Shown here piece after piece: positions 2,790 to 4,930 of a stretch of 42,180 nt of DNA. Source of the stretch: an uncultured Phycisphaera sp. (GTDB taxonomy: Bacteria; Planctomycetota; Phycisphaerae; Phycisphaerales; SM1A02); NCBI GenBank assembly GCA_937919685.1, contig CALFOM010000002.1, positions 1 to 42,180 of the forward strand. The letters are read 5' to 3'. Under the pieces are notes generated by a model. It made no database searches. It was not told the origin of the DNA and was given only the letters and a program-made list of their open reading frames with translations. Every line of letters starts with the position of its first letter. Position 1 is the first letter of the stretch. The translations under genes and the position numbers were made by a program.

Positions 2790-3164
2790 TCAGAGCAACC
2801 CGGGAATTCCCCCGGGCGGAAGGGGAATACCCAATTCGGCCGCGGCTTCCTTGAGGTGATCGCTGATCATCTGTTGAGCCCGTTCGAGGGCGGCATTGAC
2901 GGCGCTGGTGATGAGATCCTCGGCCATGCGCTGAGCGTTCCCATCGGCAACATCGACCAGAGTGGAGAGCATCGCCGGGTCGACCTTGACCGATCGGATC
3001 CGCATGCGGCCGTCCGCCACCGCGGTCACCGCCCCCCCGCCGGCATTGGCTTCCACCGTCATGTCGGCAAGTTCAGACCTCGCTCTATCCAGCCGTTGTC
3101 GGATCCGAGGAAGGTCCTTCATGAGACCGCCGAGACCGGCCATTCCCTTAAGTGCATCGAACAT
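2790..3164 (-). CDS. ebfC: YbaB/EbfC family nucleoid-associated protein
   Basis: A small DNA-binding protein of the YbaB/EbfC family, which forms dimers and affects nucleoid structure and gene expression. The 124-residue sequence has the family pattern: a Gly/Met-rich start (MFDALKGMAGLGGLMKDLP), a charged helix, a central beta segment with AGGGAVTAVADG and a C-terminal helix containing DLITSAVNAALERAQQM. Its ATG overlaps the dnaX stop codon (TGATG), so the two are probably translationally coupled. The dnaX-ebfC-recR order supports the call strongly. Confidence 0.93.
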   Translation of the reverse strand: MFDALKGMAGLGGLMKDLPRIRQRLDRARSELADMTVEANAGGGAVTAVADGRMRIRSVKVDPAMLSTLVDVADGNAQRMAEDLITSAVNAALERAQQMISDHLKEAAAELGIPLPPGGIPGLL

Positions 3165-4930
3165 CAGTCTTGCTTCTCCGATGATGCGGCGGTTTCGCCA
3201 CCAGTGGTGGATTCTTCAGTTCTACGTACCTGGACCACGTGGGCGTCGAAGAGATCGACGGCTTCGCGAACCAGGGGGTGATCGTTCACATCCGCGGCCA
3301 CGTCCAACGTCGTCGTCTTCATCGGCGCCGACTCCTTCACGAATTCGATCTCGATCCGACGACCGAACGCCGCGGAAGCGAGCTCTGCGAGACCTTGCGG
3401 CTTCTGGATCGTCCATCCGGCACTTGGTGACGCATCGATTCGCTTGCGGAGTCGAAGCCGGCCTCCCTCCAGTCGATCGAACTCAAAATCATCAAGCATG
3501 GCCCGTTGTTTCGGGGTCCCCGCCGCGGCCTGCAATGCGGCCCAAGGCCCGCGATCGTCCTTGATCGGCGAGGAGGAAGCGTCTGCCTCGACGATCTCCG
3601 ATTTGGGAGGCGTGGTTGCCGGCACCTTCTGGGAAACGGTTCGAGCTGGAATCGCGGCCGGAATCGGCACCGACTTCGGTTCGAGCGCCGGCGCGGACGG
3701 CCGTGGAGCGGATACCGCCGGAGCGACGGTTCGCCCTGACTCAGCGACCTTCAGGCTTTTTTTTTTCGAGGTCGAGGACGACGAAACCGCAACGTCGCCC
3801 GCCAGGAGCGAGGCAGCTCGAGCAAACCTCTCGGACAGCGCCATGCGGGTCACCGCCGCATCTAGAATCGCCCGTGGCGAGGCGCTCACGCGAACCCGCC
3901 CTCCTGCCGCGTCGCACAACGCGATCATGTGGACAAGTTGCTCTGCCTCAAACACCGCAGCTTCTTGGACGAGGGCGGCGGATTCCTCGCTTCCGGTACC
4001 GAGCAGCGCCGGGTCGTCGCCACAGACCCTCGCGGCCAGAAGCAGCCTGAATCGTTCCGCGATCCCGTCCAACGCTCGCTCGGGAGCAAGCCCTTCGGCG
4101 AGAAGTGCGGCCATCGCTCGCAGCGTTGCTGCAGGATCTCCGGCTCCGATCGCCGCCACCACATCCTTCACGATGTCCTCTGGGGGAACGCCGAGCACCC
4201 GCACGAGCAGCGCGGCATCGAGACGGCCGTCGGCCGCCGCCACCACTCTCTCAAGAATGCTCAGGCCATCGCGCATGGACCCGTTGGCGAGTCGGGCGAT
4301 GCGAAGTAGCACCGAATCATCGGCCTCGATCGATTCGCTACCCAGCACCACGGCCAGATGTTCCGCGATCCGACCGACCGAAATCGGTCGGAAGTCGAAT
4401 CGCTGGCATCGACTTTGAATGGTGGGGAGAACCTTGTGCGGCTCGGTCGTGCAGAGGATGAATTTCACATGTGATGGTGGTTCCTCCATGGTCTTCAGCA
4501 ACGCGTTGAACGCCGCGTTGGAGAGCATGTGAACCTCATCGATGATGTAGATCTTGAAGGGGCTTCTCGCCGGGCGGATGCTTGCGTTGGCGATCAGATC
4601 ACGAGCATCCTGCACGCCGTTGTTGCTTGCACCGTCGATCTCGACGACATCCATGTCCTCGCCGCGGAGAATCGCATCCTCCACCGCCACCCGCTCGGAC
4701 TGCTCCTCCGAGACGTTGAGGGCCCGCGCAAAGATGCGAGCCATCGACGTCTTGCCGACGCCTCGAGTCCCACAGAAGAGGTACGCATGCGCCGTCCGAC
4801 CGCGGTCGATCGCTCGCTCGAGCGTCTCCGCGATCGATTCCTGTCCCACGACCTCGGCGAAGGTCCTCGACCGATAGCGTCGAGCGAGAACCTGATAGCC
4901 GGTGGTGGTGTCTGAGGCGGTTTCGGACAT
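3164..4930 (-). CDS. dnaX: DNA polymerase III subunit tau (and probably gamma), clamp loader ATPase
   Basis: DnaX is the AAA+ motor of the clamp loader; the full-length tau form also links polymerase and helicase. The 588-residue protein has Walker A GTRGVGKT at 54-61, a Walker B region with IYIIDEVHML, sensor motif CTTEPHK and an SRC arginine-finger motif (QSRCQRFDFR). It then has domain III, a Ser/Pro/Lys-rich linker from about 380-480 and a C-terminal tau domain. Two oddities: the zinc-binding cysteines normally found between Walker A and Walker B are absent (LNVSEEQSERVAV replaces the Cys module), and the linker start is encoded by an uninterrupted A10 run at 3757-3766, with stops close by in both other frames. 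It lies downstream of the SRP RNA gene and overlaps ebfC. Confidence 0.96.
   Translation of the reverse strand: MSETASDTTTGYQVLARRYRSRTFAEVVGQESIAETLERAIDRGRTAHAYLFCGTRGVGKTSMARIFARALNVSEEQSERVAVEDAILRGEDMDVVEIDGASNNGVQDARDLIANASIRPARSPFKIYIIDEVHMLSNAAFNALLKTMEEPPSHVKFILCTTEPHKVLPTIQSRCQRFDFRPISVGRIAEHLAVVLGSESIEADDSVLLRIARLANGSMRDGLSILERVVAAADGRLDAALLVRVLGVPPEDIVKDVVAAIGAGDPAATLRAMAALLAEGLAPERALDGIAERFRLLLAARVCGDDPALLGTGSEESAALVQEAAVFEAEQLVHMIALCDAAGGRVRVSASPRAILDAAVTRMALSERFARAASLLAGDVAVSSSSTSKKKSLKVAESGRTVAPAVSAPRPSAPALEPKSVPIPAAIPARTVSQKVPATTPPKSEIVEADASSSPIKDDRGPWAALQAAAGTPKQRAMLDDFEFDRLEGGRLRLRKRIDASPSAGWTIQKPQGLAELASAAFGRRIEIEFVKESAPMKTTTLDVAADVNDHPLVREAVDLFDAHVVQVRRTEESTTGGETAASSEKQD
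3757..3766 (-). other. A10 homopolymer: candidate programmed slippage/frameshift site in dnaX
   Basis: On the coding strand ten consecutive A residues encode Lys389-Lys391 and the first base of Ser392. One extra A (or a -1 ribosomal shift) gives KPEGR then TGA, for a product of about 396 residues. One fewer A gives Ala then TGA, about 392 residues. Either product would end just after domain III, like gamma in bacteria that make it by slippage (Thermus) or frameshifting (E. coli). Confidence 0.7.

Follow-up and report, generated by a model that had tools for sequence, protein, structure and literature searches.

A run of ten adenines in a planctomycete dnaX as a probable slip site, with changing counterparts among its relatives

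Introduction

How does one gene supply a cell with two clamp-loader subunits, and how much of the answer can be read from the gene itself? These questions are raised by a stretch of DNA of 42,180 nucleotides from an uncultured Phycisphaera sp. (assembly GCA_937919685.1, contig CALFOM010000002.1, positions 1 to 42,180; the whole stretch is called the window below), in which dnaX, on the minus strand at 3164..4930, carries ten uninterrupted A residues where the protein passes from domain III into the tau linker. An earlier note on this DNA had proposed that the run is poised to slip and to yield a shortened, gamma-type subunit. Here, we have taken that proposal seriously and asked at what level such a slip would act and what the relatives have at the same place.

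To our knowledge, how widely bacteria need gamma has received little attention outside E. coli, Thermus, and Caulobacter. Larsen et al. (2000) reportedly described transcriptional slippage at A9 in Thermus thermophilus dnaX. PMC5009743 and PMC1088944 describe that gene as slipping in transcription at A9, with near stops in both other frames; dnaX mRNAs of mixed run length and tau and gamma at ~1:1 would be the marks of slippage of this type. PMC5009743 also suggests that the presence of two tRNA-Lys (UUU and CUU) might explain why a gene slips in transcription instead of frameshifting. In E. coli dnaX, a -1 ribosomal frameshift takes place at A_AAA_AAG, with an SD and a hairpin (PMC5009743 and PMC3711429), and in Caulobacter, gamma is a proteolysis product of tau (PMC5009743). 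Antonov et al. 2013 (PMC3711429) collected two-ORF dnaX genes in which tau is made by recoding—17 genes from 12 genera, nine with A10—and took A10 in dnaX as a transcriptional slip site. Slippage in transcription, frameshifting on the ribosome, and the inverted form of dnaX thus all have published precedents. PMC1088944 calls the comparative recognition of slippage that gives a truncated product difficult, and no paper came up when the literature was searched for dnaX together with Phycisphaer-.

Results

By profile, the window protein is an ordinary DnaX (TIGR02397 dnaX_nterm, 361 bits, cut-off 250), and most of its best matches on named contigs come from MAGs of Planctomycetota and Phycisphaerales, on which the planctomycete assignment rests. 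Standard decoding gives the tau form of 588 aa, with a calculated mass of 62.6 kDa, which comprises an ATPase domain (PF13177, 4382..4846; all dnaX coordinates are on the minus strand), an ATPase lid (PF22608, 4226..4369), domain III (PF12169, residues 241-366, 3833..4210), and the tau-only linker and C-terminal part (3167..3756). The run (3757..3766, T10 on the plus strand) fills codons 389-391 and the first base of 392 (AAA AAA AAA A), in the coding context TCG AAA AAA AAA AGC CTG; it starts 23 codons past the end of domain III, at the transition where the earlier note had placed it. A synonymous alternative to the run is AAGAAGAAA.

What would a slip at this place do? If a transcript lost one A (or gained two), direct reading gives GCC TGA (3751..3756) at once, and the predicted product would end in KKKA at 392 aa and 41.8 kDa; if it gained one A (or lost two), G CCT GAA GGT CGC TGA (3741..3756) would end the product in KKKKPEGR at 396 aa and 42.3 kDa. 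The two immediate stops and the product lengths of 392-396 residues that had been claimed are as stated, and the computed masses replace an earlier guess of ~43 kDa. Both products would retain the ATPase domain, the lid, and domain III, and the tau-only part would be absent from them. The standard frame stays open for 196 codons past the run, so the gene does not have the two-ORF arrangement. Off-frame stops equally close (-1 within 5 codons, +1 within 1) occur at 5 of the 558 codon positions of this dnaX.

The run is also a rare object. There is no A8 elsewhere in the window on either strand; the 3 A8 matches observed overlap and all come from the A10, against a mean of 0.22 in 100 dinucleotide shuffles, 2 of which got to 3. 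The bacterium's own assembly (3.45 Mb, 254 contigs, 97% complete) holds runs of A9 or longer in five places on both strands, and the dnaX run is its sole A10. Scanned against Rfam with its gathering thresholds, the window gave 0 matches.

The genus set consists of eight genomes, six of which have dnaX across the site; G002 has a weak match that is not a full dnaX, and the G005 contig stops at codon 327. (The missing part of the G005 gene was sought at that genome's sole A10, which is not dnaX.) All six loci carry exactly ten A, and the frame of the run is shared; the -1A stop comes one codon later (GGC TGA in L009) and the +1A stop after 4-5 codons; L007 has a one-codon insertion, and yet, its +1A stop is preserved. 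The earlier note had looked to related genes to keep the run and both stops while the flanking linker drifts, and this is what the six show: an AAG interruption was looked for and none was found in the genus, nor is there any scatter in run length among the six. Among the first 380 alignment columns, 301 have an unchanged amino acid, and at 237 of these the six loci differ in the third base; at five conserved Lys columns outside the run, AAG is used in 26 of 30 codons, while within the run, AAA is used in 18 of 18. Over codons 1-370, the AAG share of Lys codons is 32/37 in the genus and 989/1276 in 149 loci of the family. Four of the six genus genomes hold no A10 other than the dnaX run (G001 has one further place, and G004 has two A11). 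No SD-like motif lies upstream of the run in any of the six loci. The hairpin z, computed over 50 nt after the run, goes from -2.64 (L008) and -1.57 (L007) up to 0.03, and the window gene, at -0.47, has no excess; in the sister genus g8, the SD-like motif is present in both loci.

To see what the rest of the family does at this place, we searched 181 genomes, of which 156 gave a dnaX match at E <= 1e-40, and fetched the loci of 150, leaving out six genomes with weaker or split matches (G017, G040, G048, G108, G111, and G123). The site is covered by 140 loci, namely 139 of the 149 in the main set and L222, which was read separately; ten of the 150 stop short of it. Some family loci are near-identical relatives, so the counts are not of independent events. 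The main-set motif search was limited to codons 368-415, and a candidate slip motif lies at codons 377-406 in 137 of the 140 covering genes: A9 or A10 in 94, A7 in 39, and G_GGA_AA[AG] in the -1 heptamer register in 4, with none in the remaining 3. The GGGAAA[AG] heptamer is a candidate only, given as a raw count without chance comparison, and it includes L203 (GGGAAAG), which is counted though doubtful as a slip site, with a -1 stop only after 57 codons. All three genes without any sought motif belong to g37, where seven genes cover the site, so the short form would there be either dispensable or produced another way. That motifs of different kinds recur in 137 of 140 genes suggests that production of a short clamp-loader subunit is under selection in the family. 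Runs of at least nine A occur 93 times in the linker region of the 149 loci and once elsewhere (in 622 kb including flanks), and T9 occurs once. Two of the named contigs, L029 and L030, have slip sites identical to those of L189 and L169 in the family set.

The two levels of recoding make different demands: a two-way slip requires stops in both off frames and no register, whereas a -1 ribosomal shift requires one stop and a register. The codon phases of the 93 A9/A10 runs (35, 33, and 25 in phases 0, 1, and 2) keep no register; the A7 runs, although sought in any phase, are in phase 2, the A_AAA_AAA register, in 39 of 39 cases from 8 genera. In A9/A10 genes with tau in frame, the -1 stop comes within 17 codons and the +1 stop within 14 in 88 of 88, against 15% of control positions (the limits were taken from the data themselves, and the control consists of positions further down the same linkers, not a full codon-choice model). 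By genus means over 30 genera, both off frames are nearer a stop than the control (Wilcoxon p 4.7e-6 and 1.7e-6), the -1 frame in 29 of 30 and the +1 frame in 30 of 30. In contrast, A7 genes with tau in frame, from 3 genera only, are closer to a stop in the -1 frame alone, within 12 codons in 18 of 18; their +1 frame shows no constraint, with its first stop 5 to 212 codons away at a mean quantile of 0.52. The idea that stops in two frames suggest selection is strengthened by this comparison.

The stimulators sort in the same way. An SD-like motif 9-19 nt upstream of the run is present in 12 of 88 A9/A10 genes with tau in frame (control 15%), in 15 of 18 A7 genes with tau in frame, and in 18 of 21 inverted A7 genes (control 11-12%). 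At least half of the loci carry it in 8 of 10 ribosomal-type genera vs. 4 of 31 long-run genera; g43 (0/1) and g39 (1/3) are the ribosomal-type exceptions, and g8 is among the four. The mean hairpin z is -0.29 for the 93 long runs (control -0.07) vs. -1.52 for the 42 others (Mann–Whitney p 7e-6 by locus, kinship ignored). Genera g4, g29, and g44, with A7 in the -1 register, have the SD-like motif in 15 of 18 loci and a mean z of -1.21. Sites of the A7 and GGGAAA/G kinds usually have both stimulators. The statistical signature of a two-way slip is observed in the family, and the A9/A10 class has the pattern to be expected if slippage is transcriptional, as it is in Thermus. The window gene would stand on the two-way-slip side, except for the A_AAA_AAA inside its run.

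We also tried tRNA-Lys(CUU) as a switch of mechanism and rejected it: in a pattern search (not a tRNA caller), it is not diagnostic across the family. The pattern is unmatched in A7 genera g29 (16/16 genomes) and g4 (4/4), matched in A7 genera g44 (3/3), g35 (7/9), and g42 (6/14), and unmatched in A10 genera g33 (3/3) and g41 (4/4). The window's own assembly has both tRNA-Lys, UUU and CUU, and resembles Thermus in this.

In 28 family loci, the arrangement is inverted: the standard frame ends 0-13 codons from the slip site, and the -1 frame continues. In these genes (21 with A7, 5 with A9/A10, and 2 with GGGAAAA), the short form would be the default, and tau would need recoding. A tau-tail profile made from the in-frame genes recognizes 24 of the 28 tails in the -1 frame at E <= 7.6e-6 and 0 of 28 control tails in the +1 frame. 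Of the remaining loci, L180 gives E 3, and L195, L151, and L158 give no match; L151 and L158 are cut by contig ends, that of L158, which is counted as inverted, lying 6 codons after the run. In g5, three of four A9/A10 inverted genes fall in one clade, and any single A9/A10 inverted gene may be a length error of its assembly. In g35 (L171, L172, L180, L186, and L195), the codon next to A_AAA_AAA in the standard frame is TGA, so tau would depend on a -1 shift at this stop. Two of the inverted genes, L193 and L236, have G_GGA_AAA and no A run, very strong hairpins (mean z -4.05), and tails recognized as tau.

Beyond the family, we searched 149 genomes of the phylum, of which 139 had a match and 109 gave a locus that was read. 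Other families of the same class contributed eight loci, and each of the eight has a motif, A9/A10 in five (one of them inverted) and G_GGA_AAA in the three that belong to family f2. In f2 (L274, L275, and L276; same order), the site reads G_GGA_AAA GCC TGA, the standard frame ends one codon on, and 78 codons stay open in the -1 frame; the tau profile does not recognize these three tails (best E 0.23), which may be a shortened tau or something else, and the inverted status of f2 is putative. Outside the class, runs of A9 or longer are found in 10 of 101 planctomycete loci, within the region searched and with a few loci cut short. Named contigs with A9-A11 belong to Phycisphaerales, Planctomycetales, Pirellulales, and Gemmatales and also to some Opitutales, Flavobacteriales, and Bacteroidales, one spirochaete, and one clostridium. 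In family f15 (L337, L340, L354, L356, and L365), standard decoding stops at codon 394-402 and the tau tail lies in the -1 frame (5/5 by the tau profile, E 6e-10 to 1e-16); a run of A7 or longer was not found in these loci, and by eye, there is a C_CCC or C_CCG proline tetramer (C_CCC_TGA in L340) shortly 5' of the stop. This may be a -1 site of another kind, or reinitiation may serve instead.

We counted changes on a tree made from DnaX alone, with 170 rows; several of its deep branches are weakly supported, so the counts are approximate. The fewest changes among long-run, ribosomal-type, and no site are 10 (156 rows counted), and those between tau in frame and inverted are also 10 (153 rows counted, f2 taken as inverted). 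Within the family only, they are 12 (A7 and GGGAAA kept apart) and 8 (default product). With the tree rooted on five chosen rows of other classes, two of which have A9, the A9/A10 site with tau in frame looks ancestral, as judged by eye without formal reconstruction.

Discussion

What, then, is the run for? We consider it probable, with good confidence, that the A10 is a programmed transcriptional slip site of the Thermus type, from which tau and a gamma-type subunit would both be obtained. RNA polymerase would realign the nascent A run on the template T run so that dnaX mRNAs of several run lengths would result; those with 10 or 10±3n A would give tau, and all other run lengths would meet a stop one to four codons on and give a subunit with the ATPase part and domain III and without the tau linker and tail. 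We infer slippage here, its transcriptional level, its ratio, and the use of the short protein. The likeness to Thermus lies in the unbroken A run, the single ORF for tau, and the near stops in both frames; the differences are that the run is A10 rather than A9, that the host is a planctomycete, and that slippage is here predicted from sequence.

Could the ribosome do the slipping instead, by a -1 shift on A_AAA_AAA or by sliding on poly-A, so that gamma arises in translation as it does from E. coli dnaX? The window gene is like that of E. coli in its two predicted products, the short one with the N-terminal part, and in the heptamer of X_XXY_YYZ type within its run, and because the A10 contains this heptamer in frame, ribosomal slipping keeps a small share of our belief. 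The stimulated A7 sites of g4, g29, and g44, the hairpins of L007 and L008 within the genus, and the SD-like motif of g8 speak for it as well. However, the SD-like motif and the hairpin of E. coli dnaX were not found in the window gene, the A9/A10 class at large lacks both stimulators and ignores codon phase, and its near +1 stops are of no need to a -1 shift. For these genes, we consider a ribosomal slip unlikely.

One might also suppose that nothing is programmed and that the run is a basic patch of the linker (KKKS or KKKR) conserved as peptide. KKK is indeed present in 6/6 genus loci, and an A10 in any frame encodes at least two to three Lys; yet, Lys elsewhere is mostly AAG, which never occurs in the run in the genus, the phase of the run differs among genera, and off-frame stops are enriched, all of which makes the patch a very doubtful account. 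We give still less credence to the proposal that gamma is cut from tau, with the run incidental. Such proteolysis is known for Caulobacter (PMC5009743), but it would leave unexplained the run, its stops, and the ribosomal-type sites that relatives carry at this position. Equally hard to believe is an assembly error in the length of the homopolymer. The assemblies are drafts, and 10 of the 149 family contigs end at codons 347-423, around the slip site (L146, L153, L213, L221, L225, L234, L242, and L246, for example), vs. 5 elsewhere in dnaX, which is either assembly trouble or real variation in run length; however, a run length that differs from ten by anything but a multiple of three would close the tau frame, and six separate assemblies have exactly ten A.

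If transcriptional slippage is the right reading of the window gene, it may be one state of a trait that has not stood still. We lean, with some reserve, toward the view that the gamma/tau pair is a conserved trait of the class whose mode turns over: an apparently ancestral A10 slip with tau in frame would have been replaced, more than once, by A_AAA_AAA or G_GGA_AAA sites for a ribosomal -1 shift, accompanied by an SD-like motif and a hairpin, and the default product would have flipped, with at least ten changes each, in site type and in default, on the DnaX tree. Our reserve is due to the unrecognized tails of f2 and the doubtful L203. Relatives g4, g29, and g44 resemble the E. coli type, but with A_AAA_AAA, and the 28 inverted genes have the same arrangement as the two-ORF genes of Antonov et al., from which the window gene differs in having tau in the standard frame. 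Nine of 17 genes in that set have A10, vs. the inverted family genes, most of which have A7. Conservation across a class with repeated switching was not found in the literature searched, which subscription papers mostly lie outside.

The wider use of the comparison is that run length, codon phase, and the identity of the off frames that hold stops separate the two levels of recoding with nothing but sequence in hand. Such a signature could recognize truncating slippage from genomes.

A neighboring feature deserves mention. The start of ybaB/ebfC (2790..3164, minus strand) overlaps the dnaX stop in TGATG at window positions 3162-3166, and recR (2119-2742) comes after ybaB; termination on slipped transcripts, ~590 nt upstream, could reduce ybaB-recR expression.
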